Of a stretch of DNA of 64,000 nt, positions 5,266-37,362 are shown piece after piece (the stretch's first letter is position 1; every line of letters starts with the position of its first letter). A program made the position numbers and the translations under genes. Origin of the DNA: Aquila chrysaetos chrysaetos (lineage: Eukaryota > Chordata > Aves > Accipitriformes > Accipitridae); the NCBI RefSeq assembly GCF_900496995.4, contig NC_044007.1, positions 372,001 through 436,000 on the forward strand, read 5' to 3'. A model generated the notes under the pieces. That model did not search any database. It worked only from the letters and a program-made list of their open reading frames with translations, and was not told the DNA's origin.

Positions 5266-5289
5266 CCTCCCGCTGCACGCCTTTCACAG
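5266..5289 (-). other. EPPK1: EPPK1 5'UTR end and splice acceptor
   Basis: Reading the minus strand, a pyrimidine-rich run (about 5325-5300) leads to an AG at 5290-5291, followed by 24 bases of leader and the ATG at 5265. This suggests that the large coding exon is preceded by a non-coding exon, as in mammalian epiplakin. The leader exon itself was not located. Confidence 0.5.
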
Positions 5290-15019: not shown

Positions 15020-15524
15020 TAGAAAAAGAAACCTACTCTTTATTGTGGCTGGCAGGGCCGTGCCCGGCCAAGGTTACATTCAGCTCTACTGCTGTCCGGT
15101 TAGCGGGGTGACGTGAGCATGCGTCAGCAGGGCAGGGGTCCCACCGCCCGCGGGTGCTGCAGGCGGGACGGGGGCACGGGCGCGAGGGACCCCCCCCCGG
15201 CCCGTGGCAGCCCCAGCCCTGCCGGGGTGGGGGGGGGGGGGGGGCAGCTGTAGCTGGGGCCCCGTGCACACACACCGAAAGCCCAAGGGGTGAGGGTTAG
15301 CACCAGAAACGGGGCTCTGCGTCCGGCGAGGGGCCCTGGTGCCCGGGTACTGAGCTCAGCCACCTCCCACCGGCGTGGGGGCAGCAGGACGGGGGGACCC
15401 CCCCACCAGCAATGCCAAATGCCCGGGGGCACCAGCAGCCACCCCGATGATGGCACGGGAGCCTGGGGGGAGAGGGGTAGGGCCCAGCCCAGGGGCGTCT
15501 GGGCTGCCACAGCCCTGGCTGACC
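15020..15524 (-). other. 3'UTR of the spectraplakin-tail gene
   Basis: Lies between the tentative stop (15525-15527) and the poly(A) site. It is GC-rich with G/C homopolymers near 15185-15242 and holds no recognisable coding sequence. Its upper border depends on the uncertain last coding exon. Confidence 0.45.
15039..15044 (-). terminator. Poly(A) signal AATAAA
   Basis: Minus-strand AATAAA (TTTATT on plus). Within 60 bases downstream the minus strand is T- and GT-rich, with a repeated GTCT motif near 14985-15000, matching the usual downstream element. This is the expected 3' end of the spectrin/EF/GAR gene. Confidence 0.8.
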
Positions 15525-15865
15525 CTACAGCCGCGGGATGCTCCCGGCAGCCTGCAGCTGCCCCGGGCGCTCGGAGCGAGCAGGGCATCGGGGCTCGGTG
15601 TCCCCCCCCCCATGCTGCCTGGCGGAGCGGTGGGGCAGGGGGCCATGCCAGCCAGAGCCCGAGGGCGGTTTGGTGTGTGTCAGGGGATGCTTGCATATAC
15701 GCTGGGACCAGATCCAGCGGGATCGGTGATGGACAGACAGCTCAGCCCTTGCAGGCGGGCGCCCGCTCGGGGGGCCGCAGCGCCGGGCCGGAGACCCACG
15801 GGGCGCACGGCCGCGGCTTCGCCATCCTCCAGCCTCGGGGCGGGCGGCCGCCGGGGAGGAGAGTC
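15525..15865 (-). CDS. Tentative last coding exon (E39)
   Basis: A fair acceptor (pyrimidines then CACTCAG) ends at 15866. In the phase left by E38 the frame stays open to a TAG at 15525-15527, giving about 112 Arg/Pro/Ser-rich residues. The other two frames end at 15680 and 15742. The sequence is low-complexity and has no recognised homology, so the true C-terminus could differ. Confidence 0.35.
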
Positions 15866-16188
15866 CTGAGTGGGGCCGGCCGAGGGTGCTGGGCGCAGGG
15901 CGGGCGGCTGGGGGTGCTCAGCGGCAGGGGCTGCAGCGCTCCGGGGGGGGACCCTTCGGGTGGCTCTGCAAGGGCAAGGAAGGGCTGGAGCGGTGTGTGC
16001 TCCCCTGCACCGGTGCTCCTGGGGCGGGGGGCCATCCCCACTGCCCTGCCCCATACCAGCCCATCGACTCTGGCTCCCCTCTGCTTCCCCAGCCCCCTGC
16101 CCTGCGGGGCAGGCAGGGTGCAGCCTGCAGCAGGCTGCCTGGGGTGGGCAGGGGACCCCCCCCCCACCTGCAGCAGCACAGCCCTCAC

Positions 16189-16309
16189 CTGGGGGTGCCA
16201 CGGCCAGGCTCTCCTCGGCCGCGGTGAACTGCAGCTCAGCTCCGTCGGGCAGCAGGGAGCCGCGGGAGCGGGGGCACCGGTCTCCGGAGCGCGTCCTCCG
16301 CAGCACCGA
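16189..16309 (-). CDS. E38: C-terminal tail exon
   Basis: Acceptor CCTCCCCAG, donor CAG|GTGAGG. Reads [14 protein letters not shown] to ESLAVAPP. Basic then acidic; starts in phase 0 and ends with one base of a split codon. Confidence 0.8.
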
Positions 16310-19300
16310 CTGGGGAGGGAGAGAGGGTCAGCACCCGCAGCCGTCGGGCTGGGGAGGTCGGGACTTCTGGGGGGGCTCCCCAGCCCTTACCTTCCTGGCC
16401 AGGGGGCTGCTGGGGGCCGAGGCGCTGCTGTAGAGGCTGAGGCTGGAGTTGGAGCGGCTGGGGGACAGCACTTTGGAGGAGGGGGCCGACTGGTTCCCCG
16501 CACACTTGGCCGCGGCGGCCCCGAAGGCATCTGGGGACAGGTACTTCTCGTTGATCTTCAGGTTGGTCCTTCCCTTCACTGGGGACAACAGAGGCGGTGA
16601 GCGGGGCTGGCGCTGGGGGTCCCTGCGAACCCCCCTGGGGAGGCTGGTGGGCTGCATCCCATATAGGCACCACCAACCCGCACGGCCCTGTGGGCACCCT
16701 GCCCGGGGAACAGGGACGCCTGCCATGCCGATGTCGGGGCTCTCCCAGCCTCAGCCGGCTGCAGATCCTCCTGGCCGCAGAGCTGTGGGTGCCCCGTGCC
16801 CGGCACCCGGCGTGGGACAGCCATACCCACCTCTGCAGGGGTCGTTCTTCACCAGGAACTCGTCCAGCGCGATCCAGCCCCCGCCGACCCGCACCATCAG
16901 GGTGCTACGCAGGATCCGCACCATCCGCAGCTGCTGGGACTCCCCGAACTGCGGGGGAGAGGGGTGTCAGGGCAAGGCGGGGGCTGGGGGGGGGCGGTTT
17001 GGCAGGGCTGGGAGCCAGAGAAGGGCACCAGTGCAGGTACCAGCGCTCAGAGCTGCCTGTCACCGGGCTGTCGGGTCCCTCACAGTCCCTCTGTCCCCGC
17101 CAGCGCTGCCCTCCCTGCAATGCCACAGCATGCAGCATCTGGGGCCAGGGATCCCACGGGACATGGGGATGTGCCCTCTCCCTGCTGTTGCAAAGCATCT
17201 GGGGCAGGGAGCCACAGCACACGGGGGGCTGCAGGACCTCTGCATGGTGCAGGCTGCGTACGGGTGTTGGAGCAAGCCCGGGACCACGGGGTGGGGAACC
17301 ATGGGGGGCCGCTGGGGACCCGGCAGCAGGGCAGGAGGCAGTAACGGTGTTGGTTGGCACTTACCCGGTACCTGTTGGCGCTGATCTGCTCCACCTGGAA
17401 GCGCTTGGCACAGTTGCACTGGGCCACCTGCCTGTTCACCTGGGGACGGCACGCTCAGCTCAGACCCACGGCAGGGCCCCCCACCGTGCCCGGCCCCAGG
17501 CACCGCGGCTCTCCCCGCCGTACCTCGTCCTGGATCTGGTCGGCATCGGCGGTCCGGCGCAGCGGGTCCCGGTTGGGGTGCAGGGTGCTGACAAACTCGT
17601 AGTAGTCGATGAAGCCGTCGCCATTCATGTCGAAGATGCTCGCCACGGCGTTCATCTCCAAGACGTTGGTGGGGAACTCTGGGGAGGGAAGCGGACCCTC
17701 AGCCTGCCGTGCCCTGTGCCAAGGCCAGCTGGCACCAGCACCGAACCCTGGCCCCCCTCCAAGGGGTATCCCAGCTGGCAGACCCTGTCCCTCCCCATCC
17801 CTGATAGCACTGCCCCACCTCTCCCGGGACTGCCCTTTCCTGAGTTCTCAGGGGGAGGGAATCCCTGTGGGGTGCACCAGCCCCAGGAGCCAGCCCCAGC
17901 CCACCCCAGCCCCGGAGGCACTCACTGGAGGAGAGGACGCTCTCGATGAACTCCCGCTGGCTGATGCGGCCGTCCTGGTCCCTGTCGATGCCTCGGAAAA
18001 CATCCAGGACACGGGACTTCATTTGGCTGATCCACTGCATGTAACGTTTTCTCCAGACCCCGAAGTCAAAGTGAGCAAACTCCTCCAGCTCAGAGAGGCA
18101 CAGATGGGAATTAATGCACTGGCAGGAAAGCCCCCCCCCCCCCCGAGCCCCCCCATCACATCAGCCTGGGTGACCATGCTTTGCCCCACGTTCGGGCTCA
18201 ACCCCGCTGCTGTGCAGCCAGCCAGCTCCCAGCCCTGACCCCGCTGAGGCTGGCAAAGGGGTCTCTGCCCAGGACCCCCAACTCTGGGTTGCAAAGGGGA
18301 GCCACAGGCTGAAGCAGCCGGCTCTTGGCCATTGAGGGTGCGCCCACCCCTGCCCGCAAGGATGCGCAGGGACTCCTGGCTACAGGAACGGAGTTTGGGA
18401 AGGCTCCTGGGTGCTGTCTGCTCCATCCCACCAACCCTGGGGACCGACCCCATCCGCATCCGACCCAGGGCCAGGGGCTCCGGCCAGCAGAAGACAAGAC
18501 CAGCTGCCGGCACCCACCGGGGCCGTGGCACCGCCGGCGCTGCCCCTACCTCTCGCAGGCGCTGCAGGGCCGTCTCCAGCCGGTATTGCCGGTCCAGGGC
18601 CAGAAGCCAGAGCTGCTGCCAGCGGTGCAGGAGCTGGGCCATGAGGGGCGTCTGGGGCTCCAGCCCCCCGAGCGGCACCGCCGGCGCGCCCTGCGCCTTC
18701 CCCGTGCTGCGACGACCTGCAGCCGGTGGAGATGGGCGGTGAGGGCACAGCCAGCGGTCCTGGGGCACGGCACCGCGCGGCACAGGGGGCAAACGGGGGT
18801 CTTACGTGTGGCTAGTCGGCGGGCAGCCGGCGGGCCCAGCTCCGCGGCCAGCTTCCGCTTGCAGCTCTTGGTGACCTTCTCCACATCGGGCTGCTTGCGG
18901 TTCAGCTCCTCCATGAACACCTGCCGCAGAGCACCGGCACAGCTGGGGCAGGGGGCTGAAGCCGGGAGTACAGCCACCCATGGACCAGCCCTGTTGCCCC
19001 CCCTCCCGGCGACCCTCCTGCATCAGCAGCCCTTGCCACAGACCCGGTGGGCTTGGGCTGTGGCTGCTGCCGTGCATGAAAGAAGCTGCTGCGTCACTGC
19101 TGCATGCACGAGCTGCACCCACGGCCTCAGCCTGGTGTGTCCAAAAGTCCTCGGTGGGGTCAAGCCGAGGTGGGGAGCTGGGCGCAGGGTCCCTTACCGT
19201 GTGCTGGGCATTGAGCTCCTCCAGCTGCTCAGCCTCCTCCGGCAGCGGCTCCTGGTCCCGCAGGCTGAGTGCCTCCTCGGCGGCCGTGATCCAGTCGATG

Positions 19301-22300
19301 AGCTGGGCCATCTCCTCCCGCTCGGCCGCAAGGCTGGCGGTCTGCGCCTGCAGCCGCTCACCCTGCTGCTGGGCCCAGCTCAGCACCTGCGGGCACAGCC
19401 AGGGGAGCTGGGCCATGGGGGCTGGCGGCAGGGGGGGGGGCCACGGGGCCGGCTGCCCCGCTGTGGACCCCTGTGTCTGCAGCCCCGACCAGGCACTGGG
19501 GGGCCATTGCTTCAGGGGCAACGAGTTCCTGCACGGGGAGCCACGGTGCACGTCTGCCATGGGGCAAGCACACGGATCCCCGGCCAGCAGCTGTAATGAC
19601 TATGGGGCAGGAACACAGAGCAGGGACGGGGATGCTCCATGGCCCACCCATGATGATGGGGCAGGACAGGGTTCCTGCTGGGCAGCTGGGGCAGGGCTGA
19701 CAGTACTGACCCTCATGTGCCGAGGGGCCTTTGCAGCTCTCGGGTGCTGCCGCCGGTGCTTTGAGCACCGGTCCTCGGACCGTCCCTGCGGGCAGCAGCC
19801 AAACGTACCGGTACCCAGGTCTGAGCCAGTGCGGACGTGCTGGCTGCCCTCGCAGCGGGGCTGTGCCGCGTCCTCGCTATCTGGGGCGAGCGGGGCGAGG
19901 AAGGCAGCCCCGGGGGCGGCAGGACCCCGGAGCAGATCCAGATCAGATACCGAAGATCTCTGCTCACTAAGGGCTTTGTGCAGATGAGGGATGGGCCCAA
20001 CCCGTCAGACCCGTTCAGGGAGAGCCCGGAGCGCTCTCGCCTGCAAACCCACAATGCCAGAAAGCCTCTGAGCTGCTGCTGCGGGAGCAGGGTCTGGGGT
20101 GGAGATCCCCAGGACACTGCTCCCCAGGGACTCCCTGCCTGGGCTGCATGGCATCTGTCGTCACACAGGAATGAGCCACCACCATCCAGGTGGGACCACA
20201 GAGGCCCCAGGGGACCCCCTGTGTGGCTCCGGGATGGGGGAGCAGGGGTGGGAGCAAGGGGATGGTCAGGGCTGGCCAGGGCAGTGCGTCCCGGCAGCTC
20301 ACGGGGGGCCAGGTCTGCGCAGGAGGAATTGAGCAAGGGCCAGCTGGTCGCTGGCGAGACCAAGACCCTCTGTGTTGGCCAAGGACGGAGCCAAGCATCC
20401 CCAGCTCCCTGCAACGCGCCGGTCAGGAGAGCTGCGCCAAAGAGGCACCAGCGGTGGGAACAGCGTGGGGCCGTGCTCGTCCCAGGCACGGGTGCAGATC
20501 TGCTCCCCACCCAGGGAGGGATGGAGAAGGGGTGCCCAGCTCACCTCCTGGAAGCGGCTCTTAGCGACCGTGACCCAGGACTTGATAGTGATGACGGAGT
20601 CCGGGTGGCAGGTGGAGAGGATCTCCTCCCCCAGCGAGGTGATGCACTCCAGCTCCAGCTGCTGGCACTGCAGGGACTTCATCAGCTCCTGGGGGAGGGC
20701 ACGGACCATGGTACTGCAGGGTCTCAGCCCCCTGCACCTCACTGCACCCCCCAGCACCGCAGGGACCAGCCTCCCCCCAGCCGGGTGTGCAGGCGGCAGA
20801 AGGACGCTGGGCAGAGCGAGCATGGCCACCGAGCATGGCTGTCTTTGCATGGGGTGCTTGGGACCCCAAATCTCCACACCTCAGGGTGCTTAGGGCCCCA
20901 AACCCCATGTCTTGGTGTGATGGGGCCCAACATCCCACGTCTTGGTGTGGCGCACCCCACACCCTAGCAGGGGCCGGCTGAGCCCAGCAACGGGACGTCC
21001 CGGGGCAAGGATGGAGCCACCCTGGAGGTGGGGGCTGGTGGGGGGTAGTGGGGGCTGGCAGGGACAGGCACTGACCTGCAGCTGGTTCTGGCACTCCTGC
21101 ACGGCCAGCTCCTCCTCGGGGAAGACGCCGTACTTGAGGGCTTTCTCCGACTCGGAGAGGCGACCCAGGAAGGAATGCACCAGGGTGTGAAACTCCTCCG
21201 CCTGCCACAGATAGCCGGGGACCTGCTCAGCACCCACCTCGGCCAGACCCCGAGCCCCCCAGCCAGACCCCGAGCCCTGCAACTGCCGCTCCTGCCCGGG
21301 GCCAGACAAACACCCAGCGCAGCTGTGCAGCTCCAGGCCCCTGAGGGAGAGCTGCTGCCAGCCCCACTCAACTGGAGACGGGATGCTCTTCACCCCAGCT
21401 TGGCACCTGGGACACAATTTCCCCCAACCCCCATCAGTCCCTCCCCATCGAGCAGGGCACCCTGCAACACGCAGCAATCCTGCCCTGGGCACCTTGCACA
21501 CAGGCACACCCGCAACAGGGTGCCAGCCCGGCACCCGGCCATGGCACCTTGCGACACAGCCCCACAACGTACGGCCACCCACCGCCCGGGCACCCCACAC
21601 AGCACCCTGCAGCACAGCCACACACAGAGCCCAGGCATCCCACGCAGCACCCCCTGCAGCACAGCCGCATGCAGCCCTGGGCTCCCCACGTGCCCACGGC
21701 CACCTGCAGAGAATGCACCAGCTGCAGACCCTGACCTTTCTGCCCGGGCAGGCCCTGGGCTGGCTGCTGCCCCTCAGCCACCCGCGGCTTGACCGGCTCT
21801 CACCTGCCGGAGCGCAGCTTCCAGCCGGGCCTGCTTGGAGACGGAGAGCTTGCAGACCAGGTCCCACCGGGTGCTCAGCTCCTCCATCTGCTTCTGCAGC
21901 CACTGGGAGTCGACGCTGCTGCTGCCGCGGGTCAGGTCCCGCACCGAGCGCTTCAGCATCTTGATGCAGCTGGCTCGCTTGCCCAGCTCCTTCTGGAAGA
22001 CCTGCGCAGGAGAGGGCAGGGGCAGGTGGGAGATGCCAGGGGGCCCCAGCACCCTGCCTGGCCCCCGTTACTGTGCAGGGCTCCCATGCACCCCAGGACC
22101 CCTTGCAGCAATAGGGTACACGGGATGCCCCAGCACTGCCTCAAGGACTGGGAGCACAGGCTTAGGTTAAGCGGGGGCTGCTCCGGTGGGCAAAGCCCCA
22201 TCCTGCGCCTGGCTGGTGTCCTGCCCTGGGACGGAGGGTGGGCAGGGCTGGTGCGGAGCCCAGGGCTCCCCAGGGGCCAACGTGGGGCTGGGGACACCCA

Positions 22301-25300
22301 CCTTGTGCTTGTCCATGAGGTCACCGACCAGGTCCCGGTCCCCTCCGACAGGCACGTCCTCACTGAGCTGCGGCTCAGCCCGGTACAGCCAGTCCATGAG
22401 GGCCTGCAGTGCATCCGTGAACTTGCCCGAGAAGAGCAGGTTCTCCTCCAGTTTGTGCTGCCTGCAAGGAAGGGTGCAGGCAATGCCAGCAGTGCCCAGG
22501 TGCCGGGGCTCAGCCCCGTGGTGCAGGGAACGGCCGCCCCATGGGGAACCCAGCAGTGCAGCTGTTAAGTGCCTGGGCTTGCCTATGGCTGGGGACGGAT
22601 CCTGGCTGCACCCCCAGGGGCCAGAGCCCACTGGAGCTGGGGCAGGGGGTCCCGAAGCAGGGAGCGGGATGCCCAGGGAGGAAGGGCAATGCCATGCCCC
22701 CCGCCTGGGACCTGCATGGCAAGCAGAGCACAGGCATCCCATCCCGTCCCACCCCATCCCATCATATCCCATCCCGTCCCTGCCTCACCTCTCCACAGCC
22801 CGGCTGCACAGTGCATCCCAGCGCTCCTTCAGCTCCCCCAGCAGCTCCTCCAGCGGCTGCAGGTCCTCAGGGAGCTGGGCTCTCTCCCGCAGCGCCCGCC
22901 CGCTCCGCAGCGTGGCCTCGTACACCGGCCGCTTCGAGCGCAGCACCTTCTGGAAAGCCTGTGGGCAGAGGGGGTGAGCCCAACCGGACCCCCGGGACGT
23001 GGGTGCCGGCCCCAGGGCAGGTGGGCTGGGGGGGAGACTCCTGCCTCCCCGAGTGCCGCCGGGCAGCTTGGGGGGCCGATGCCCCTTGGCCAGGGGCTCC
23101 CCTGCCCCAGGTCTCCTCGCTTTACAGAGACGGCCCTGGAAAGGCATCCGACTGCCGCGGCACCAAGTGCATCGTGGCACTGCTGTCCCGCTGGGAGCTG
23201 GGAAGCCCCCTCCCCTGCCGCCCCACAGCCCCCAGCTCTGCTCCCCACTGCCCATGGCTGGGCAGCCGCCCCTGCTGGGACCCCCCCCCCCCTTCTCCAC
23301 AGGGCTGGGGAGCGGGGCAGGGCCCCCACCTTGTGCTCAGCCAGCTGGCACTTGATCTCCTCCTGGCTCGTAGCAGTGTCCTGCGGCACCTCCAAGCTCT
23401 GCTCCACCTCGTCCATCCAGTCCAGGAGCAGCCGCCGGGACTCGCTGAACTGAAACGGAGGGGAGAGGTGCGTGGGGGGAGCCTCGTGCACGAAGCAGGG
23501 GCCAGGGCGACCCAGGCGATGAGAGCCACAGCAGCCACACAACAGAGCTGCACGGCCCGCGCACCACCGCAGCACAAACTGTGGGCCAGCGCGGCACGGT
23601 CCCTGTGCCGGAGCCGCACGGCCCCTGCGCCGGCACAGCTCCACGCAGGACCCGCGTCCCCCGGCACCGCGGCCGAGTACCTGCTTGGTGCGCTTGCGTG
23701 CCTCCTCCAGCGCCGCTCCTCGCTCCGACGTCCGCTGCAGCACCTTGCTCAGCCGCTCCCTGGCCGTCAGCACCAGGTTCTGGATGACGGCACCATCCTG
23801 CTTCCTGCTGAAGTCTTTCAAGCGAGACGCGACAGCCTCCAGGCCGCTGAGCTTTTCCCCGTGGGCATTCGCCTCCTTCACCAGGGCCTGCAGGAGAGTG
23901 GAGGCGGCTAGGAGCACACAGACAACGCCGGGGCAGGAGCAGAGCCTCCGAGCGCAGCCCGCACCCGGACAGGGTGCAGAGCCAACTCGCTCCGTTGCTG
24001 CAGGGAGAGACGTCCCGCTGGCAGCCTGGGGGAGATTTCCCCTACCGGTGCCGCTGCCGGTGCCACACAGGACCCCCTCCGGGCAGACCCCAGCCCCATG
24101 GAATCCGCCCCGGGGTCGGGGCGTGCTGCCGGAGCACACCTGGGTGGCAGGCGGGAGGGGGGTCACGCCGGCTCAGCCCGCACTTGCCTTGTGCTCCTGG
24201 ATCTGCGCGGTGACGGTGTCCAGGACGAAGCTGGGCGGCGCGGGGGAGCCGAGGAGCTCCTCCGCGTGAGCCACCCAGCGCAGCAGCTCCTGCACGGTGC
24301 CGTGAAACTCGGTGGTGACCGTCAGCCCCTCGGCCAGGCGTTCCTGTGGGCAGAGCGGAGGCACTGACGGCGACGGGCACCCGCAGCCCCCAAAGCCAGG
24401 GCAGGGTCGGGACCCCTGGGCAGGCAGCACGCCCCTGCCCCGCGCACCTTCCTCTCCTGGGCCTCGGCGTGGACGCTCTCCCACTTCTGCTCCAGGATGC
24501 GGAGGCTGTGCTCCGTGCTGCAGGGCCGGCCGGCGCGGCAGGAGGCCAGCAGCCGCTGCAGCCGCTCCCGCACGCTGCTGTACGCCTCCTGCTTGGACTC
24601 CATCTCCTTGCATAGCTCCTGCCGAGAGGCCGCGGGGACCCCCGGGGTCACTGCCCCGCAGGGAGATGGAGACAGGGATGGGGATGGGGAGGGCTCCCAC
24701 TCTGTCCCAGGGGAGCTGGAGGGGGCAGGGGAGGGGTGCAGGAGGGGTCTGCCCGGTCGGGGAGACGAGAAGGCAGAGAAGGGTCCCAGCGTCTCCGTGC
24801 AGAGAGGGGCGGATTTGGGGTACACGTACACCCCCCAAGGGACGCTCAGGGACAGCCCTGCAGCAGGGGGAGGCCGGCAGAGCCCCGGTGCTCACCAGGT
24901 GCGCGGTGAGCTTCTCTTTGGTGGTGTCCGGGTGGCCCCACGCCGGCTTGGAAAAGAAGAGCTGCAGCTCCACCTGCTCCAGCCACTGCAGCAGCTCCGT
25001 GATCTCCAGCGTGATGTCCTGCACCTGGGGATGGCGCGGGGGCTCAGCGCTGCCCATGCCAGCGGGCAGCACCATGGCGGGCAGCTCCGGCACGCGGGTG
25101 CGCGGTGCCCCGTACCTGGCTGAGGTTGTTCTCCAGCTCCAGCTGGCGGCTCTCGGTCTCACTCTGCACCAGGTCCCAGCGCTGGTTGAGCTGCTGCAGG
25201 CTGCGCTGGAGCCCCTCCACGCTCTCCCCCAGGCTGGAGAGCAGCAAGCCCTGCCCGGCCTCGTTGACGGACTGCACCGTGCGGGCATGGGACATCACGT

Positions 25301-28300: not shown

Positions 28301-31300
28301 GCGGGGTGCGAGGCTTGGCAGACACGTGGTCCCTTGTGCGGGGACACCAGCCTGGGACAGCCACCCTCCATCCAGCCCAGCCCGGGGACATCCAGGAGAC
28401 ACTGGCTCTGGGGAGCAACGCCTGCCCCTTCTCCAGGGTCCGGCTGCGGCTCAGCTCCGGGGACACCCCCATGCCCGCGAGCAGCATCCCCATGTCCCCG
28501 ACCCTTGCTGGACCCACGCCACTCACATCGTCCAGGCTCTTGGTGACATCGGGCTTGTCAGGGTCCCCACAGGAGGACATCAGCTCCACGCCCAGGCTGC
28601 CCAGCGTGTCCAGCTCACCCTGCAGCGAGTCGATCTCCTCTCGCAGCGCCTGTGGGCCAGGAGAGGGGGGGGGGCTCGGTGATGCCCGTGCCACGGGGCT
28701 GCCCGTACCGCGGGGCTGCCCACCAAGCTCCCAACCCCGTACCTGCAGGGTGCGGAGCCGTGTGCGGATGGCCTCGGGCTCGCCGCCGGCCTCTTCCAGC
28801 CCCAGCACCAGCTGCTGGGTGTCGCTCAGCGTCAGGGCCAGCTCGGAGAGACCGTGCCAGAAGCGGTCGGCCAGCGCCAGCAGCTCCCGCAGCCAGCGCT
28901 CCTGCTCCTGGCAGCGGCCCCGCAGGCAGCCCCACTGGGACAGCAGCTGTGCCGTCCGCTCCTGGATCCCTGCGGGGCATGAGAGGGACGAGGGGGGGTC
29001 AGCCTAGGGCCCCTTGGGGTGCTGCGAGGGACCCGGCACCCCGACACAGCCCCAAACAGGGACGTGGCCCCGCCGGGATGCCCCGTGAGCGGGGATGCGC
29101 TGCCGTGCACGCACACCCACCCGCGGGGCCATGCCTGCCCCTCCGTGCCGTACCTCTGGCAGCTGCATCGGAGTTTGCTGCCTGCATGCTGGCCAGCAGC
29201 TCGCTGCCCTGCGCCTGGACGGTCTCCAGGGCCACCCCCAGCTTCTCCAGCTCGCCCAGGGCCAGGCTGTTCTCGCGGATCTGCTCCCGAAGGTGGGCCG
29301 CATCGCCGCGGACAGAGGGCTGGCTCTGCAGGCGGCTCTGCAGCCGCTCCAGGCATTCCAGCAGCAGGTCCATACGCTCGGTCAGCTGGGGAAGGTGCGG
29401 GGGGACCAGCCCGGTCACTTGAGGGGAAGCCCCAGGGGACACCAGCCCCCCGGTGCCGGCCCCGTACCTGGCTGTAACGTGGCAGAGCATCCTCCAGCAG
29501 GGCAGCCGCCTGGCGCACGCGTTCACGGATGCAGCCATACTGCTCCTCCGCCTCCCGCCAGCGCTGCTGGAACGGGGCACCCTGCTCCGGGCTCAGCTCC
29601 ACCAGCTGCGCCGAGACACGCTGCAGCTTCCCCATCAGGGGACGGTGCTCTGCGATGGCCTCCCGCAGGCACTGAGGGCAGAGGAAAGGCCGTGGGCACG
29701 CGTGGGACCAGGACAGGGCACGTGGGGATGTGCCCTGGTGCACCCCGGCACTGCCCTGGCTCTGCTCCCAGTGCACGGTACTCCTGCGTGTTGGGTGCCC
29801 CAGCGCAGCGGTCCCTGCAGCGGTGCCACCTCCGTCCCGTCGCAGACCGCCGGCTGCTCCGCCGCCTCTCTGCTCCCGACCCCACATGTCCCTGCCCTCA
29901 CCTTCTCCTTCCCCGTGCCCTGGCCAGGGCCACCCCGCCCTCACCTGCAGCAATGCCTGCTGTTCCTTGAAGGCCTCGTAGCTGATGGCGTTGGGGGAAA
30001 GCTGCACCCCGACGACCTGCGTCTCCTCCAGCCAGGGCGACAGCTCCTCGTGGGCCTCGGAGAACTGGGCGAGCAGGGACTGGGCGTGCTCCAGCTGCAC
30101 GGCACAGGCTCCGCTGCGCAGGAAGAGCTGCTCCGTGCGCTCCCGCAGTGCCTGCACCGAGGGCTGTGGAGACGGGCGGCTCACCGGGGCGCTGGGGACA
30201 CGGGGCACGGGCGTCCCCTGGTGCAAGCGGGCGCTGCCGCGGCAGCATCCCACCCAGCACCCACCGGTGCAGCCCCGGCACGGCCGCTCACCTGGAGGTG
30301 CTGCTGCAGGGGCTCGGGGCAGGAGCGGAGCAGCGGGTCCGAGATCTCCAGCAGACGCTCCACCAGTCCCCGGTGGTGCAGGATCTCAGCGGAGAGCAGC
30401 TGGAAGACAGAGGCATGTGGGTGCCAGGTCCTGCAGAGACGTCGGCAGGTCCACACACGTGTGACTTGGGGGTCAGTGCAGGAGCCCACCGGAGCGGGAA
30501 CACAAAGCCAGTGTCCCCGGGGAATTCTGGGCACCCCTTTGGGGTGTGGGTACCAGTGGTCAGTGCTGCAGACCCACCTTCTGATCGGAGAGCTGTGAGC
30601 GGAGGGCCTGGGCATCCAGCTGCACCCGGCCGATCTCCTCCAGCCGCTCGCCAAGCCCAGCCAAGCGGGCGAGCTGGGAGTCCAGAATCTGCTCAAACTG
30701 CAGCGGAGAGGAGAGACGTCAGCCGTGCCAGCAGGGCGGACACGCGCACCGGGGCGGCCTCTCCGGGACAAAGACCCCCCCCCCCATGCATCCGCTGCTG
30801 GTTAGCATGGGACCTTCTGCCATAACCTGGTGTATCCCATCCAGACGTGTCCCACCAGACCCGACTCCCCTGTGCCTCCCGCTGCAGGCAGCAATGCTGC
30901 GGGGCCGGGGAGCAGTGAAGGGGGCAGAGGGTGATGGTCCCCAGAGCCCCATGTCCCGCACCTTTTCCCTGTCGCTCGTGCTGACCGCGGGCTCCTGGCC
31001 GCCGTGCTGGCTGTCCCAGGAGGCCAGCTCCTTCTCCATGCGGCCCAGCCAAAGCGCCAGGTCCTCCTGGGCAGCGCCCAGGCGGGACGAAGCCTCCAGG
31101 GTCTGCCCCAGCCGGTGCATGGTGTCGGCGCTGCTCTGGCCCACGATGAGATACCGCATCCTCAGGGACTCCATCTTCTCCTGTGCCAACTGGGCCTCCT
31201 CCCCTGCGGCAGCACCGTGGCTGGCATCAGTGCCGCTGCAGCCAGTGTCCCCGGGGCTGGGGACCGGTCGCACTGACGCTTTCCCTTCCCCGTGATGGTC

Positions 31301-34300
31301 ACTCCGTCCCGATCTTCCCCTGCGCCTGCTCCTCCTCTGCTTCTCCTGGACCCAGCTCTGGCCCCTCATCCCCATCGTAGGCAAAATTCAACTCCCCGGT
31401 TGCCCCCCGCTGCCAGTGCACCACATCCCACCATGCCCCTGATGCCCACGGGCCAGGCTGTCCCCTGGCCCCTCTCCATCCGATGGTATGCTCTGTGCCC
31501 CATCACGCGATGCCGGGCCCCCACAGCCACCGGTGGGGAGCGGAGCGCCCCGAGGACACCCAGCACCCGGGGGTCCCCTTGCCAGGCTGGGCTGCTCCCT
31601 TGCCAGGACGTGCCTTGGTGCTGGCACAGCCCAGGGCAGCACTCACTCCCTCCCATGTCCCGTGGTCCCGACCCTGCGGCCACCGCTTCCAGCCAACCCC
31701 ACTTACCTGTCACCATCTCCAGGACCCGCTGCCCGCTCTCCAGGGCGCCATCCAGCTCTCCCAGCCGGCCGCGAATCTCCTCGCAAAGGGCCTGGGGCGA
31801 GAGGCTCCCGTGGCAGCGACTGCTGCGGACGCCGCTCCCCCCATCACCCGCTGCACCCACGGGTGTCCCCCCGTCCCCACCGCCACCCCCAGCCCTCCAC
31901 ATGGCCCCGCTCACAGCTCGCCCCGCCTCACCGTGCCCCGCTCGCCCTGCCCGCCCGGCTGACCCGTGCCACGGCGGGTGCCCGAGCCCACCCCGCACCC
32001 AAGCCCGGCTCCGACCTGGGTTTGCCGGTGGGCGTCCTGCACGCGGCTGACGCAGCCGTTGGCGCGCCAGAGCTGGGCCAGCTGCCGCTCCGTGGCACCG
32101 AGCCACTCCTGGAAGGAGTCCACAGCCTCCTGGAAGTCCTGTGCCGCTGGCAGGATCCGCTCCAGGCAGCCGTACCTGCGCCGGGAAGGCTGGGTGAGCC
32201 AGGGAGGGCAACAGCCCCCAGCTTTGCGGGTGCAAGACTGAGATCCTGGCTGGAAAAGCCTTCTCTCCCCCTGCCACCAGGGCTGGGTGCCCAGTTCCCA
32301 CATCTGGGATGCCCCTGCCCTGTGCTCCCCACCCCAAAACCTCCCACCCTGAATGCGAGGGGTGAGGCGAGGCCAGCATCCCCTACCCAGCCCCAGCAGC
32401 ACCAGGAGCATCCCGAGGACAGGCTGCAGGTGTCCTGGGCTGAGGGTCCCGCTTCATCCCAGCGAGGGCTGGGAACACAGGGACGCAGGATGAGGCAGCC
32501 CCTGCCAGGCTGCGCCAGCCCCAGCCCGGTTCCATGACCCTGTCCGCTGCAGGGCAGGACCCCCCCTGCCCCGGCATCACCCTGACAACCAGGCTGGGTG
32601 CTGGCACGGCCACGCTGGGGCATCTGGCTGCGCTGCTCCGCTCCAGGCCCAGCGGCACCCCAGCGAGCTCCCCTGTCGCTTGCGGCAAAGGGCCGGCTCT
32701 CATCCCGGTGCTCCGGGGGCTCATGCCGGACCAGCCGCAGAGCCACAGACCCGCTGACCCCGGGGCCGGGAAGGAGGATTGAGATGTGCCGAGAGCCTGG
32801 CCCAAAGCAGAGCCCTCGCCCGCCGCTCTGCGCGGTGCATGCCGGAACAACACCGGACCGAGCCCCTCACTTGCCAGCGGCGAGGAGGGCCGGGCAGTGC
32901 AGCGAGGCGATGGTGCATCCCCGGCTGGCAGAGCCCCGGGGGGCTGCAGGGACCAACCCTGCACCACACACGGCTGGAGGCGGTGCGGTCTGCGGGGCAC
33001 GGTGCAGCCCCGGCGTGTGGGATGAGGATGAGGATGGGGACAGTCCCTCTGCCAGGGCAGCCCCAGCACGAGAGGGGCAGAGCACACTGCTGCTGCATGG
33101 AGGGATGGCAGGGGGGTCACGGCACCGCAGCCGGCTGCCGGCTGTCGAGACAGCCTGTGTAGGCAGGGATGGGGCTGCCAACCCCGCTGAGGAAGGTCTC
33201 AGCCCTGACCCACCTGGCTTCAGCCTCCTGCATCAGCTTGCCCCACTTCTCCCCGAGGCCAGAGAGGCTGCCGCTCCCCTCGGGCACCAGCGTGCCGGAG
33301 CCGTGTGCCGGCGGCACGGGTCTGTCCTGCAGGATGAGCTCCACCCGCGGCCTCCGCTCCTCCAGCAGCCGCTTCAGGAGCTGCAAGGCAACGGGGCACG
33401 GTGCTGTGCCGGGGACCCCCCCCTCCCTCCTGCACCATCTCGGCACAGCCCGGCACCGCAGGCAGACAGCCGGCAGCCCCAGAACGGCCGCTCTGCCCCC
33501 GGCCCCCTAATCCCCGGCTGGAGAGCGGCGTGGGTGGGACGCGCCAGCCCGGATCTGCTGACCTTCTGCTCCTCCAGCTGGGCCTTCGCCACCTTCACCT
33601 CCGCCGAGGGCGGCTTCTGGTTGCTCACCAGCTCCTCCATGTCCGCCACCCAGGCCAGCAGGCTCTCCAGCGTGTCCTGGGCTCGCTCCGTGCCCACCGC
33701 CTCCTCCAGGACAGGGACAGCCCGCAGGGACACCTAGGGAGAGAGGTGGCTGAGCCACCCGGGCGGGCGGAGGGCAGCCGTGGGGCAGCCGTGGGGCTGG
33801 AGTGAACCCCTCCATGCCACCATGCCCTGTCGGGGAGGCGATGCCAGGGGACAGAGGGACCTGGCCCTGCCCAGGTCCCCCCTCGTATCCCCTTCTCGCC
33901 GCATCGGCAGGGCTGTGCCGAGACGGGCTCTCTACAGACCGACGCTCCTCCTCGGGGCCAAAGGACCGGGCGCTGCCCGCAGGGGTCCCCAAAGCAGGGG
34001 CTGCGCACCCCAGGCACGCCCCGTGCCATGCGGACCCCCTCTGGACACGCAGCCCCCACCAGCTGCGGCAGAGGGGAGGGGGTCAGCCCCATCCTCCGGC
34101 ACCCGACTGGGTGCCCAGCGCCGACCCAAAGCGCTGGGGTGGTGGGGGGTGCCACCGGCCCTGCCCGCACAAGGGCACCATGGGCCGTGCACACCGGCCG
34201 GCGCGTGGGGCGCAGACCCCCGTGGCGCAGGAGAGCCCCACGCGAGCCCCAGCCAAGGGAGACAAAGGCTAAGACTCGCTTGCGGAGACAAGCGTGCCGG

Positions 34301-34929
34301 CAGAGCAGCCCCGTGGCGTGGGGCCGGCGCAGCGTCTTCAGCGGCGAGGGTCCCTGCCCGGCAGTCACCTCTGCAGCATCCGTGTGTCCGGAGCGGCCGC
34401 CGGCCGCCAGCTCCCCGGCGCGCTCCGTCAGCACCGTGACCGTCCGGGTGACCAGGGGCTCGCCGCCCTTCTCGCCGGCCGGGTACTCGGTCACCTCCAC
34501 GATCTCCGTCACGATGGTCTCGGTCACCTCCGTCACCTCCGTCACCTCCCGGGTGGTGACGGGTTTCCAGGACCAGGTGCTCCGGGGGGCGCTGGCCCGG
34601 GGGGGTGTCCAGGCTGCGCCCCCTGCCTGCCCCTGCCCCTTCAGCGGGACGCAGGCCGTGCTCCCGTTCTGCACCGCCACCTCCGACTGGCTGCGCTTCA
34701 GCAGGGGGCTGCCCGGCGGGCTCCGGCCGGCACTGGGTACTGGGCTCCAGCCGTTCTCCACCGGCGCCGGCGGCTTCTCCAGCGGCCCCGGCCAGGCCTC
34801 CGCGATGCTTCTGCCGGGTGGCTGCCCCGCGTCCAGCCCCAGGTCCCGGAGCTGCGGCTCCCGGAGGAGCTCCTCCGACCGCCGGCTCTTCTCGCCCAGG
34901 CAGCTGGGCCGGCTCACCGAGTTCCCCAT
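16189..34929 (-). CDS. Spectraplakin-tail protein: spectrin rod, EF-hand pair, GAR domain (whole gene)
   Basis: Joined exons (listed separately, E2 to E38) give about 2064 codons in unbroken phase across 37 coding exons, plus a tentative last exon at 15525-15865. Domain order: residues 1-187, lipid-anchor type N-terminus MGNSVSR and a Val-Thr-Glu repeat; about residues 188-1790, a rod of roughly 14 spectrin repeats; then EF-hands with loops [12 protein letters not shown] and [12 protein letters not shown]; the GAR domain ([12 protein letters not shown] to [20 protein letters not shown]); and a Ser/Arg-rich tail. This is the C-terminal architecture of MACF1/DST, with long runs of obvious identity from the last spectrin repeats onward. 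The actin-binding, plakin and plakin-repeat domains are absent. Expected role: calcium-responsive microtubule binding or stabilisation through EF-GAR, with the rod as spacer. MACF1 and DST are elsewhere in vertebrate genomes, so this is a third paralog; I do not know an established symbol. It lies tail-to-head between PLEC and EPPK1. Confidence 0.93.
16391..16578 (-). CDS. E37: Ser-rich tail exon after GAR
   Basis: Reads [13 protein letters not shown] to SSPLARK, donor AAG|GTAAGG. The KGRTN start is the hallmark of MACF1/DST just after the GAR domain; a serine-rich stretch ([20 protein letters not shown]) follows. No SxIP end-binding motif is visible. Confidence 0.93.
16831..16948 (-). CDS. 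E36: second half of GAR domain
   Basis: Reads [14 protein letters not shown], then [20 protein letters not shown]. These are the invariant core motifs of the GAS2-related microtubule-binding domain. Donor GAG|GTGGGT; the split codon gives Val with E37. Confidence 0.97.
17365..17439 (-). CDS. E35: first half of GAR domain
   Basis: A 25-codon exon, [14 protein letters not shown] to ISANRYR, with donor CGG|GTAAGT. Contains the Cys-x-Cys pair typical of GAR domains. Confidence 0.96.
17524..17678 (-). CDS. E34: second EF-hand
   Basis: Reads [13 protein letters not shown] to QIQDE. The loop at 17596-17631 ([12 protein letters not shown]) has all canonical calcium ligands at positions 1, 3, 5, 9 and 12, with Gly at 6 and Ile at 8. 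Confidence 0.97.
17926..18088 (-). CDS. E33: first EF-hand
   Basis: Reads [14 protein letters not shown] to SVLSS. The loop at 17951-17986 ([12 protein letters not shown]) is canonical. The acceptor after TGCCTCTCTGAG was chosen because it joins LQRLRE to LEEFAHFDF as in MACF1. Confidence 0.96.
18550..18716 (-). CDS. E32: last rod exon
   Basis: Reads RRSTGKAQG, then [19 protein letters not shown] to LQRLRE. The tryptophan-rich helix [12 protein letters not shown] marks the final spectrin repeat before the EF-hands. Donor GAG|GTAGGG. Confidence 0.92.
18806..18920 (-). CDS. E31: rod exon
   Basis: Reads [14 protein letters not shown] to ARRLAT, donor C|GTAAGA; the split codon gives Arg with E32. 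FMEE.-RKQPDV-KVTK is a strongly conserved MACF1/DST motif. Confidence 0.92.
19198..19386 (-). CDS. E30: spectrin repeat exon
   Basis: 63 codons, [14 protein letters not shown] to LNAQHT, including [16 protein letters not shown], a typical helix A/B start. Acceptor GCCCGCAG, donor ACG|GTAAGG. Confidence 0.92.
19387..20544 (-). other. Intron between E29 and E30
   Basis: About 1.16 kb with no further exon recognised. Frames here are open but lack spectrin helix patterns, and E29 and E30 join in phase without extra sequence. Confidence 0.7.
20545..20688 (-). CDS. E29: spectrin repeat exon
   Basis: 48 codons, [14 protein letters not shown] to KSRFQE, containing [15 protein letters not shown] and [13 protein letters not shown], closely matching the MACF1 rod near its C-terminal end. 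Confidence 0.93.
21076..21201 (-). CDS. E28: spectrin repeat exon
   Basis: 42 codons, [14 protein letters not shown] to CQNQLQ, with [17 protein letters not shown]. Donor CAG|GTCAGT. Confidence 0.92.
21804..22001 (-). CDS. E27: spectrin repeat exon
   Basis: 66 codons, [14 protein letters not shown] to EAALRQ, with [17 protein letters not shown], a classic repeat helix C with Trp. Confidence 0.93.
22302..22461 (-). CDS. E26: spectrin repeat exon
   Basis: Reads [14 protein letters not shown] to [23 protein letters not shown] is a helix A motif. Begins with one base completing the Arg of E25. Confidence 0.93.
22789..22958 (-). CDS. E25: spectrin repeat exon
   Basis: Reads [14 protein letters not shown] to SRAVER; contains [12 protein letters not shown]. 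Ends with two bases of a split Arg codon. Confidence 0.93.
23330..23449 (-). CDS. E24: spectrin repeat exon
   Basis: 40 codons, [14 protein letters not shown] to QLAEHK. Acceptor CCTCCGTTTCAG, donor AAG|GTGGGG. Confidence 0.92.
23681..23887 (-). CDS. E23: spectrin repeat exon
   Basis: 69 codons, [14 protein letters not shown] to RKRTKQ, with [15 protein letters not shown] and [16 protein letters not shown]. Confidence 0.92.
24188..24343 (-). CDS. E22: spectrin repeat exon with GC donor
   Basis: 52 codons, [14 protein letters not shown] to QIQEHK. The donor is AAG|GCAAGT, the standard form of a GC-AG intron. The nearest GT would shift the frame, while the GC site keeps phase with E23. Confidence 0.9.
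24448..24618 (-). CDS. E21: spectrin repeat exon
   Basis: 57 codons, [14 protein letters not shown] to EAQERK; contains [16 protein letters not shown]. Donor AAG|GTGCGC. Confidence 0.92.
24896..25024 (-). CDS. E20: spectrin repeat exon
   Basis: 43 codons, [14 protein letters not shown] to KLTAHL, helix A type [13 protein letters not shown]. Donor CTG|GTGAGC. Confidence 0.92.
25116..25313 (-). CDS. E19: spectrin repeat exon
   Basis: 66 codons, [14 protein letters not shown] to LENNLSQ, with [16 protein letters not shown], a strong helix C match. Confidence 0.93.
25314..26140 (-). other. Intron between E18 and E19
   Basis: About 0.83 kb; no exon or notable repeat recognised. Confidence 0.7.
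26141..26296 (-). CDS. E18: spectrin repeat exon
   Basis: 52 codons, [14 protein letters not shown] to IELAKHK, with [15 protein letters not shown]. Donor AAG|GTGAGG. Confidence 0.93.
26674..26829 (-). CDS. E17: spectrin repeat exon
   Basis: 52 codons, [14 protein letters not shown] to EEIVSRQ, with [14 protein letters not shown]. Acceptor GCCCCGCAG, donor CAG|GTAGGG. Confidence 0.93.
26884..27075. repeat. GGCAC/GGCAT pentamer minisatellite
   Basis: Degenerate array of GGCAY pentamers and decamers, two dense blocks separated by a unique spacer, in the intron between E16 and E17. Confidence 0.75.
27308..27409 (-). CDS. E16: spectrin repeat exon
   Basis: 34 codons, [14 protein letters not shown] to [23 protein letters not shown] is strikingly like the MACF1/DST rod. 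Confidence 0.93.
28008..28109 (-). CDS. E15: spectrin repeat exon
   Basis: 34 codons, [14 protein letters not shown] to YQETMQ. Acceptor CTGCCGCAG, donor CAG|GTGGGG. Confidence 0.92.
28121..28220. repeat. Short tandem repeat, about 39-bp unit
   Basis: Two to three imperfect copies of a unit containing GAGGGTCAGCGGCACCGCGC, in the intron between E14 and E15. Confidence 0.6.
28527..28649 (-). CDS. E14: spectrin repeat exon
   Basis: 41 codons, [14 protein letters not shown] to VTKSLDD; joins in phase to LYSSW of E15. Donor GAT|GTGAGT. Confidence 0.92.
28743..28969 (-). CDS. E13: spectrin repeat exon
   Basis: Reads [13 protein letters not shown] to RLRTLQ, with [16 protein letters not shown]. 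Starts with two bases of a split Gly codon. Confidence 0.9.
29154..29385 (-). CDS. E12: spectrin repeat exon
   Basis: Reads [14 protein letters not shown] to NSDAAAR; contains [17 protein letters not shown]. Donor G|GTACGG. Confidence 0.9.
29468..29671 (-). CDS. E11: spectrin repeat exon
   Basis: 68 codons, [14 protein letters not shown] to LPRYSQ, with [15 protein letters not shown] (helix C). Donor CAG|GTACGG. Confidence 0.9.
29945..30151 (-). CDS. E10: spectrin repeat exon
   Basis: 69 codons, [12 protein letters not shown] to EQQALLQ; contains [14 protein letters not shown]. Donor CAG|GTGAGG. Confidence 0.9.
30292..30399 (-). CDS. E9: spectrin repeat exon
   Basis: 36 codons, [14 protein letters not shown] to LQQHLQ. 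Acceptor CTGTCTTCCAG, donor CAG|GTGAGC. Confidence 0.9.
30578..30697 (-). CDS. E8: spectrin repeat exon
   Basis: 40 codons, [14 protein letters not shown] to LRSQLSDQK. Acceptor CTCCGCTGCAG, donor AAG|GTGGGT. Confidence 0.9.
30962..31203 (-). CDS. E7: spectrin repeat exon
   Basis: About 80 codons, [13 protein letters not shown] to TSDREK, with [16 protein letters not shown]. Starts with two bases of the split Gly from E6. Confidence 0.9.
31707..31791 (-). CDS. E6: spectrin repeat exon
   Basis: 28 codons, [14 protein letters not shown] to VLEMVT, donor G|GTAAGT; phase agrees with both neighbours. Confidence 0.88.
32016..32175 (-). CDS. E5: spectrin repeat exon
   Basis: Reads [14 protein letters not shown] to DAHRQTQ, with [17 protein letters not shown]. 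The first base completes the Arg of E4. Donor CAG|GTCGGA. Confidence 0.88.
32176..33213 (-). other. Intron between E4 and E5
   Basis: About 1.04 kb; frames on both strands are open because of base composition, but none shows spectrin helices. Nothing else recognised. Confidence 0.65.
33214..33380 (-). CDS. E4: spectrin repeat exon
   Basis: Reads [14 protein letters not shown] to MQEAEAR, with [13 protein letters not shown] as helix C. Ends with two bases of a split Arg codon. Confidence 0.9.
33563..33733 (-). CDS. E3: first rod exon, possibly shared by two 5' ends
   Basis: 57 codons, [13 protein letters not shown] to AQLEEQK, with [13 protein letters not shown]. Starts in phase 0, so it can follow either E2 (ending DAAE) or the spectrin-like exon at 40028-40157 (ending GHALQ). 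Confidence 0.9.
34369..34929 (-). CDS. E2: first coding exon, MGNSVSR start
   Basis: ATG at 34927-34929 in good context (GCCATGG); no other in-frame ATG lies between it and the upstream TGA. 187 codons ending DAAE at donor GAG|GTGACT. Begins [12 protein letters not shown]: Gly2 and Ser6 fit N-myristoylation and Cys10 could be palmitoylated. A Pro/Ser-rich middle follows, then a Thr/Val/Glu repeat near 34430-34565 ([25 protein letters not shown]). The sequence before the rod resembles no actin-binding or plakin domain. Confidence 0.88.
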
Positions 34930-34970
34930 GGCACAGGCACGGGCGCCGGGCCCCCGCCTCAAATCCCGGC
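34930..34970 (-). other. 5'UTR part of E2 with acceptor
   Basis: A good acceptor (GGCTTGTTTCAG) ends at 34971. The exon then carries an in-frame stop (TGA) before the ATG, showing that E2 is a first coding exon and not an internal one. Confidence 0.65.
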
Positions 34971-35536: not shown

Positions 35537-35570
35537 GGCAGGCAGGCAGGCAGGCAGGCAGGCCGGCAGG
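35537..35570. repeat. (GGCA)n microsatellite
   Basis: Six perfect GGCA units and two imperfect ones. Confidence 0.9.
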
Positions 35571-36007
35571 CTCCCCACCCTGCCGCAGCCATAAATCCCC
35601 CGCGCCACCCGGCAGGACCCTCCCACGCCAGCGCCCTGCCAGAGCCCCGCCGCAGCCGCACCGCTGCCTGTGCCCCGACCCACCGCTGCCTGCGCCCCGA
35701 CCCACCGCCCAGACCCCGCACCCGGGCATGCATACCCCTGTGCACGTGTGCACACACAGACTCCCACATGTGCACACACACCCGTCTGCACCCACCCACA
35801 CCGGGTCGGTGCACCGGCATCCCCTGCCCTCAGGCTGGGGCTCTGCGTGTACGTGTACCCCCGCACCCCACTGACCCCTCTGCTCACGCCCCTCCAGCTG
35901 GGCATCCCACCCCCAGTGTGGGCCTGGGTGCTGCGTGCACCCACCAAAGGGCCGCACAGCATACATGGTGCACACACGCTCCACACGTGTGCACACGCTG
36001 CAGCGGG

Positions 36008-36011
<4 letters not shown>

Positions 36012-36038
<27 letters not shown>
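36012..36038. repeat. (CA)n microsatellite
   Basis: About 13 CA units, inside a wider CA-rich tract that extends over several hundred bases. Confidence 0.92.
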
Positions 36039-36820
36039 GATACCACGCTTTACACACACCCCCCCAATCTGCTGTGCCACACACGCGCCACTGCCGCACA
36101 CCCAGCAACAGGCAGAGACCCCCGCACCACCGCACGCCTGCATCAACAGGGCGACACGCGACATGCAAACATGCCCACGTCAGCTGCGTGCACATGCAAC
36201 AGGAGCGCACCGGGGCCAGCCTGCTCCACGCACCCCGGGCACACACTCCCGCGTGGAAGTGTGCACGCACCAAGCCCCCCGCACACACGCCGCGGCACAC
36301 GCCACGGGCAGTCCTCGTGCACGGGGTCACCGTGCACACTCACACGCGCCTGCAGCTCGCGGCGGGGCTGTGACACGCACGCCCGGTATCGCTCAGCACC
36401 GGCAGCGTCCCCGTCACCCCCCCCCCATCACTCGACCTGCGTGGACGGGCTCCCACGGGGCAGCACGGGTGGAGGATCACGCCAGGGCCACCGGGCTGGC
36501 GAGGTGAAGGGCGATTTGGGCAGACCCCACACCACACACTCCGGGGGCATCACCGGCCTCTCCCCCCACTCCCCCGTTCCCCCCCGCCCCGGCAGCCAGC
36601 CCCAGCCGTGGGGACACAGCGCAGCTGCCCCCGGACACGCTGCCCCCGTGGCGGGCGGGCAGGCAGGCAGTGCGGGCAGCAGCCAGGGTACCCTGCCTGC
36701 AGCCCTGCCTGCAGCCCTGCCCGCAGCCCCCGCCCGGCTCGGCCCCACGCACCCCCCCCCAGGTCTCGCTCACCGGCCCTCGGCAACCCCCCCGCGCAGG
36801 GTCCACGGACACGGGTGGGC

Positions 36821-36843
36821 ACGGACACGGACACGGACACGGA
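36821..36843. repeat. (ACGGAC)n repeat
   Basis: About four perfect hexamer units just downstream of the candidate exon 1 donor. Confidence 0.8.
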
Positions 36844-36893
36844 CCCGAGCCGCCCCAGCACCCCCCGCCCCGCCGGGCTGTCCCGGCACTCAC

Positions 36894-37350
36894 CCCTCGG
36901 CGGAGCCGGGCGTCCATGGGACCGGGCCGGACCGGGGGGGGGGCTCCGCCGCCGCCTCCGCTACCCGCCCGCGCCACCGGGCCATGGCGGGGGCCGAGCC
37001 GGCGGGCGGAGCCGGGACGCGGGGGGGGGTGGTTGGGGGGGACCCGACCCGGCCCGGCCCGTGCGGGGCGGCGGAGCGGGGCGGCGGAGCGGGGCGGAGC
37101 GGGGCTCGGCCCCCCGTTACCGCCGCCCGGGCATCGCCCGCCCCGGCCCCGCCGCCTTTGTGCGCTGCGCCCCGCGGCCGGGCGGTGCGGGGGGGGGGGG
37201 GGGGGACGACGACGGGGATGGGGACGGGGCGGCCCCGCCGGCGGCACCGGGCAGCACCGGGCGGGCTGGAACCCACCGGCGCGGCACTGCACCGGCACGG
37301 CACGGCACGGCTCGGCACGGCTCGGCAGGGCTGACCCCGCCGCACACACA
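36894..37350 (-). promoter_or_regulatory. CpG-island promoter and probable non-coding exon 1
   Basis: Extremely CpG-dense block 2 kb upstream of E2. On the minus strand a strong donor (GAGGG|GTGAGTG) lies at 36893-36894, suggesting an untranslated exon ending there. A tandem GC-box array (repeated GGGGCGGCGGAGC) occupies about 37061-37108. No TATA box seen. The transcription start is not defined. Confidence 0.6.
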
Positions 37351-37362
37351 CACACACACACA
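37343..37362. repeat. (CA)n microsatellite
   Basis: About ten CA units at the upstream edge of the CpG island. Confidence 0.9.

Follow-up and report, generated by a model that had tools for sequence, protein, structure and literature searches.

The window, that is, the whole 64,000-nucleotide stretch analysed here (positions 372001-436000 of contig C4 of assembly G000, which comprises 1.2337 Gb in 144 contigs), contains a gene for a spectraplakin tail. Its neighbours are plectin and epiplakin; the order is plectin, tail gene, epiplakin, and all three lie on the minus strand (Table 1). Plectin and epiplakin were named from what we take to be their rod/coiled-coil and plakin-repeat sequence, and epiplakin also from its position. 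In a hand-corrected gene model, the tail gene comprises 38 coding exons running from 34929 to 15742, with 6417 nt encoding 2138 amino acids and a stop in a single frame. An earlier note on this DNA, which gave no strand, had described a stand-alone spectraplakin tail between plectin and epiplakin with 37 coding exons in continuous phase and more than 6 kb of coding sequence. That description held, phase and coding length included, with the exon count corrected to 38. A plus-strand reading, prompted by coordinates in which the start is smaller than the end, was ruled out by the minus-strand frames and the gene-finder runs.

Table 1. Features of the locus, in window coordinates.
Feature	Position	Strand	Basis
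Plectin, rod exon (62667-59035) and last exon (58562-52077); upstream neighbour	52077..62667	-	translated frames
Predicted CpG-rich 5' UTR exon/promoter region	36894..37100 (right edge approximate)	-	CpG observed/expected and donor score
First coding exon	34369..34970	-	acceptor 34970, ATG 34929 (gccATGG); predicted myristoylation-type N-terminus, Cys10
Exons 2-31, 14 spectrin repeats (residues 206-1782)	18550..33733	-	profiles; collinear with same-genome MACF1 and DST
Exons 32-33, EF-hand pair	17524..18088	-	loops at residues 1826 and 1862; PDB match 5ve9_A
GAR domain, last codons of exon 33 and exons 34-35	16831..17535	-	Pfam GAS2, residues 1894-1962
Exons 36-38, basic Ser-rich C-terminal tail and stop	15742..16578	-	exons 37-38 least certain
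Poly(A) signal AATAAA	15039..15044	-	motif
Epiplakin start, long frame leaving the window; downstream neighbour	1..5283	-	translation

The model was built with a splice-aware dynamic programme and then corrected by hand, with the human MACF1 C-terminal sequence serving as an informal guide for exon joins. Spurious small exons of the automatic models (e.g. ESLRILAGR and EVPVVVLLL...) were deleted, two exons were fused into 26829-26674, the start of exon 32 was shifted to 18088, and the last exon was picked by frame and stop. All 37 acceptors are AG, and 36 of the 37 donors are GT, the remaining one being GC. The exon joins are consistent with the same-genome paralogs wherever these could be aligned, exons 37-38 standing without such support. 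Moreover, when all exons were moved by 6-60 bases in either direction, none of the 110 resulting joins was free of stops (minimum 2, median 20). GC content at the three codon positions of the model was.71/.44/.91, as against.71 in introns. The gene-finder score was 949 for the region and strand of the gene and 14.9, 15.6, 42.5, 52.1 and 99.2 in five runs on other regions or strands, a lenient control because the codon table was trained on the gene itself and the regions were of unequal length. The window holds 53 stop-to-stop frames of at least 300 codons, and open frames alone are therefore weak evidence here. The earlier argument that intact frames imply selection was right about the frames but is weak in 70% GC DNA; judged from the sequence, the real evidence for the gene is exon-by-exon homology rather than open frames.

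At the 5' end, the acceptor of the first coding exon scored 5.8 and the ATG lies 41 nt past it. Some 1.9 kb farther out on the 5' side are a CpG-rich stretch and a donor. This donor (GAGGG/GTGAGT) closes the predicted 5' UTR exon at 36894 and scored 5.5, the same as the median for the donors of the gene model (5.5); ATGs inside the predicted exon would yield short upstream frames terminating in the next exon. The CpG observed/expected ratio was.69 and.94 at 36501-37500 and.47-.87 in the remaining nine windows (500 bases each) of 34001-39500. The CpG island is thus modest for such a GC-rich stretch. The upstream CpG promoter of the earlier note therefore stood as a CpG-rich stretch at 36.5-37.5 kb, but one that is modest against its surroundings and whose use as a promoter is a prediction. 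A GC-rich tandem repeat with a 16/48-bp unit occupies 37673-37791, just upstream of the predicted promoter. At the 3' end, the downstream poly(A) signal was recovered: the AATAAA at 15044-15039 is the sole AATAAA/ATTAAA on the minus strand between 15742 and 10000. An Rfam scan at the gathering threshold gave 0 matches.

The encoded protein shows the spectraplakin-type order of spectrin rod, EF pair and GAR domain. Pfam searches identified spectrin repeats in 13 stretches (E = 1.1e-102), a GAS2 domain (E = 2.1e-29) and EF hands, and a profile iterated from one repeat found 15 spectrin stretches, amounting to 14 full repeats and one partial repeat. Both 12-residue EF loops are canonical under the EF-loop rule. 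The 2138-residue model thus contains all of the parts named at the outset, namely about 14 spectrin repeats, two canonical EF-hands and a GAR domain. Among PDB chains, MACF1 was the best match for the EF part (5ve9_A, 56 of 86 residues identical) and for the GAR part (5x57_A, 65 of 80 residues identical), and dystrophin was the best match for the spectrin rod in a search with the first 1259 of the 2138 residues. GAS2 and GAS2-like proteins have the GAR domain in common with the window gene, but PDB GAS2 reached 48 bits compared with 142 for MACF1, and to our knowledge GAS2 has no spectrin rod. The GAR domain of the window gene retains the CxC and DPC cysteines of MACF1, which we take to be its zinc ligands. 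Microtubule binding and a zinc-binding fold are attributed to GAR domains in the accessible parts of two papers (PMC12084551, PMC8012552). Neither a plakin family nor a CH actin-binding family was present among the Pfam matches to the model, and GSR repeats and SxIP are absent from the tail model, which rests on predicted last exons. In addition, none of the 37 tblastn HSPs of the new protein (E up to 1e-3) fell outside the gene, and no second spectrin/EF/GAR tail was seen in the window.

A gene of this kind has been published. Fuchs et al. (2022; PMC8782857) described MACF1CTL, for MACF1 carboxy-terminus-like, and proposed a PLEC/MACF1CTL gene fission. According to the accessible parts of that paper, MACF1CTL is present in birds (zebra finch and kiwi, the latter named in the legend of Fig. 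3), reptiles, amphibians, fish and basal mammals, represents the eighth plakin family member in mammals and was lost in placentals, and in zebra finch a GenBank prediction fuses PLEC and MACF1CTL. For presence in other birds, which the earlier note had made a condition of its proposal, this paper is the source. The window gene has the same location between PLEC and EPPK1 and the same domain content (spectrin, EF and GAS2, resembling the MACF1 C-terminus), and the same fission hypothesis applies; no separating feature was found, and we take it to be the published MACF1CTL. A full-text search of the accessible literature with this name found PMC8782857 alone, and in the accessible main text of that paper the words 'promoter', 'myristoyl' and 'RNA-seq' do not occur. 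Since the gene and the fission idea appear there, neither the gene nor the central inference of the earlier note is new, and what is added here is the counterpart of the start exon inside MACF1 and DST.

A GAS2-family search of the assembly gave 11 exon matches among the best-scored candidates. Two loci beyond the window matched the GAR profile over the same positions (29-68), one near 3.311 Mb on contig C16 and one near 27.383 Mb on contig C15, and 100 kb of each was compared with the window gene, whose exons proved collinear in both regions. Against the EF chain of MACF1 in the PDB, the C16 locus was identical in 50/50 and 34/35 residues (84/85) and the C15 locus in 48/50 and 31/35, the second segment being counted over chain residues 52-86 (the raw alignments, 40/63 for C16 and 34/51 for C15, overran the exon edge). 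Furthermore, the C16 and C15 tails end in GSR-type repeats and KPSKIPTM or KPSKIPTP, respectively, which we take to be the endings of MACF1 and DST. By these sequence matches, the C16 locus is MACF1 and the C15 locus is DST.

With a threshold of at least 30% of an exon's residues aligned in each paralog, 30 of the 38 exons are matched in MACF1 as well as in DST, the exceptions being 1, 4, 7, 8, 15, 18, 37 and 38. Identity over the 1545 sites common to all three was.480 for gene-MACF1,.468 for gene-DST and.678 for MACF1-DST, and another chain of 1453 sites, without overlapping EF pieces, gave.465,.458 and.642. The MACF1-DST identity was the highest in 1000 of 1000 bootstraps, with a smallest margin of.154, and the window gene was equidistant from the two (95% interval of the difference, -.006 to.031). 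By domain, its identity to MACF1 and DST was.63 and.61 in the EF part and.82 and.81 in the GAR part, compared with.91 and.97 between MACF1 and DST. The window gene is thus far more diverged from MACF1 and DST than these are from one another. These same-genome distances, which are unrooted, therefore make it neither a recent copy of MACF1 or DST nor visibly nested in either, and they support the earlier proposal of a third vertebrate paralog: the gene branched off no later than the MACF1/DST divergence, or near it with faster change since. A search of the assembly with the GAR-tail exons gave 8 matches (2 in the window, 2 on C16, 2 on C15, 1 on C10 and 1 on C9, all weaker), so no second copy of the window gene was seen.

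MACF1 and DST have the spectrin rod, EF pair, GAR domain, exon order and a counterpart of the start exon in common with the window gene. Unlike them, the window gene is without CH, plakin and plakin-repeat parts, an upstream spectrin exon of about 500 residues, GSR repeats and SxIP. The start-exon counterpart is the sequence MGKPLSRPDCL, which precedes the matching spectrin exon in MACF1 as well as in DST. On both strands, the pattern MG...SRP.CL occurred once each in the C16 region, the C15 region and the window, and it was found in none of 30 Markov sets of the same size. The pattern lies at 62018 of the C16 region, before the exon-2-like spectrin exon at 68638, and at 32132 of the C15 region, before the one at 36958. 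In all three genes, the next spectrin exon opens with a phase-0 Val directly after the AG. The first 45 residues of the window gene gave a z of 5.6 against C16, a score reached by 2 of 2000 shuffles, and a z of 4.6 against C15, reached by 1 of 2000. The likeness is restricted to these first ~45 residues: over the whole 187-residue exon the similarity was not significant, the score being reached by 150 of 2000 shuffles for C16 and 55 of 2000 for C15, and phmmer, queried with all or part of the exon, did not pick up an MG exon at either paralog locus, its best hits (E = 0.34, 0.63 and 1.7) all lying elsewhere. The MG exons of MACF1 and DST resemble each other strongly over about 160 residues (score 415, 0 of 2000 shuffles). 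In MACF1, this exon (C16 region 61955-65371, about 3277955-3281371) opens a stop-free frame of 1138 codons that extends far beyond the part shared with DST and may be a very long alternative exon.

Each of the three MG exons is preceded, at a distance of at most 2.6 kb, by a CpG-rich stretch, which runs from 60.5 kb to the MG exon in the C16 region and lies at 30.5-31.5 kb in the C15 region, with GC of.57-.65 compared with.38 for the locus. From this CpG content, the conserved methionine and database entries that we take to start with MGKPLSRPDC, we infer that the MG exons of MACF1 and DST are first exons; they could also be internal exons of a long transcript. The acceptor-to-ATG distance is 16 nt in C16 and 1 nt in C15 (acceptors picked by eye), different from that in the window gene, as is the entering frame, and no donor above threshold was listed in the MG exons of the paralogs. 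The string MGKPLSRPDC was not found by full-text search of the accessible literature, and among the papers listed by the literature searches no title or abstract opening named a short internal isoform of MACF1 or DST. A 2021 review of MACF1, in its accessible part, places the plakin domain in all known MACF1 isoforms (PMC8012552), so a short isoform starting at the MG exon is not established there.

Upstream of the MG exon, the C16 region contains 27 plakin-repeat matches at 24-27 kb and, starting at 47 kb, a spectrin frame some 500 residues long. Its C15 counterpart shares 48% identity with it, and plakin repeats had 0 matches in the 100 kb of the C15 region. Between plectin and the window gene (37.4-52 kb), no trace of spectrin exons corresponding to this upstream exon of the paralogs was found. 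Taken together with the start-exon counterpart, the lack of upstream spectrin coding places the beginning of the window gene at the site of an internal exon of MACF1 and DST, and the sequences suggest that the gene split along an internal start already in place. The MGxxxS start and Cys10 are predicted, as a motif reading, to be of the myristoylation/palmitoylation type. The window gene also matches the Gly2 pattern, presumably PROSITE PS00008, with its permitted residues at positions 3, 6 and 7, whereas the MGKPLS of the paralogs has Lys3, which is excluded there.

We therefore favour, with a probability of roughly 0.78, the reading that MACF1CTL is an ancient third paralog comprising what lay downstream of an internal start, and that a split left the front of the ancestral gene as plectin and the back as a membrane-tethered microtubule linker. 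The ancestral spectraplakin would already have possessed an internal promoter and start exon. One ancestral copy would then have split, and the plectin lineage, on losing the spectrin exons that separated the plakin repeats from the internal unit, would have been left with two genes, the back one driven by the internal CpG promoter and carrying the putative lipid-anchor first exon, whose counterparts still lie inside MACF1 and DST. Plectin, adjacent on the same strand and mostly outside the window, would represent the front half of that ancestral gene. The earlier description of the tail as the surviving 3' half of the locus that gave plectin agrees with gene order and strand, but it is not the whole half, the ~500-residue spectrin exon having left no trace.

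As for function, the parts of the protein point most likely to a membrane-tethered microtubule linker. A predicted N-terminal myristate/palmitate would anchor it to the membrane, the 14 spectrin repeats would serve as a spacer, and the calcium-binding EF pair and zinc-binding GAR domain would grip the microtubule lattice. Because the model has no CH domains, plakin repeats or SxIP, the protein is expected neither to make direct links to actin or intermediate filaments nor to track plus ends through EB proteins. In the tails of BPAG1 and MACF1, according to the accessible part of the source, GSR repeats bundle microtubules, and SxIP is important for EB1 within EB binding (PMC4171495); a tail model with neither feature would fit a membrane-to-lattice tether with no plus-end tracking.

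A further claim concerns the internal unit as a whole (CpG promoter, untranslated exon, MGxxxSRPxCL start, rod and EF-GAR). It holds that this unit is ancient, that plectin and MACF1CTL broke along it, and that MACF1 and DST use it for a short plakin-less isoform; we give it even odds. If this is true, the product of the internal unit would be a membrane-tethered, actin-independent microtubule linker, an isoform outside the list in the accessible part of the MACF1 review (PMC8012552). If the start unit of MACF1CTL is the same as the one hidden in MACF1 and DST, that would account for both halves of a giant gene surviving its split. It would also point to short membrane-anchored MACF1 and DST products, which is relevant for the reading of disease variants: changes in the GAR region would presumably hit the short products too, unlike changes upstream of the internal start. 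MACF1CTL is out of reach of human and mouse biology, because placentals lost the gene.

Other explanations of the locus were weighed against this reading. A recent copy of MACF1 or DST, in tandem or by segmental duplication, is one of the outcomes that the earlier note had named as overturning its proposal. It would account for the same domain order and exon structure, but the equidistance from both paralogs and the greater distance than between MACF1 and DST in every bootstrap contradict it, as does the EF part, in which the C16 locus is nearly identical to PDB MACF1 and the window gene is not. With these unrooted distances, we consider it ruled out for practical purposes. The greater divergence, particularly in the EF and GAR domains, might instead mark a decaying relic with low expression or weak constraint, heading for the loss published for placental mammals (PMC8782857, accessible part). 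Yet the reading frame of the 38-exon model is unbroken by stops or frameshifts and its splice sites are intact, the two EF loops are canonical and the GAR cysteines are kept, which makes decay quite improbable.

Finally, plectin and the MACF1CTL chain might partly form one transcription unit, with a full-length spectraplakin made by splicing from the last exon of plectin. The fused zebra finch prediction (PMC8782857, accessible part) is in line with this, an open frame leads from acceptor 34970 into the ATG of MACF1CTL, and a donor at 52292 in the last plectin exon fits this acceptor in phase. However, that donor is weak (score 4.0, while 7 of the 246 GT in this exon score above 5), the last plectin exon has its own stop at 52077, and the ~15 kb between the two genes contain no recognisable paralog coding or strong exon chain. 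MACF1CTL, moreover, has its own CpG-rich stretch, an ATG in strong context and a first exon. We regard joint transcription as unlikely, though as deserving more weight than decay, and retain the reading of MACF1CTL as a separate gene derived by a split.

Two minor observations were made on related sequences. The C-terminus of plectin (52077-52180, minus strand) carries 34 more residues (AAALALALSLPRRSCG...) past the RRYTAGPQSTVE segment before its stop, an extension that looks unlike what we take to be the mammalian plectin end. Relatives of the tail were also sought by pattern in public contigs, where viral contigs gave 0 confirmed relatives out of 51 matches and genome contigs gave 1 confirmed locus out of 73, a fungal-looking GAS2-like protein in a bacterial MAG. 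This locus, in NYXK01000211.1 (L001:6014-10864), filed as a deltaproteobacterial MAG, has a 1616-residue frame with a GAS2-like MVRVGGGW segment; it reads like a fungal cytoskeletal protein and probably reflects eukaryotic contamination of the reference genome.
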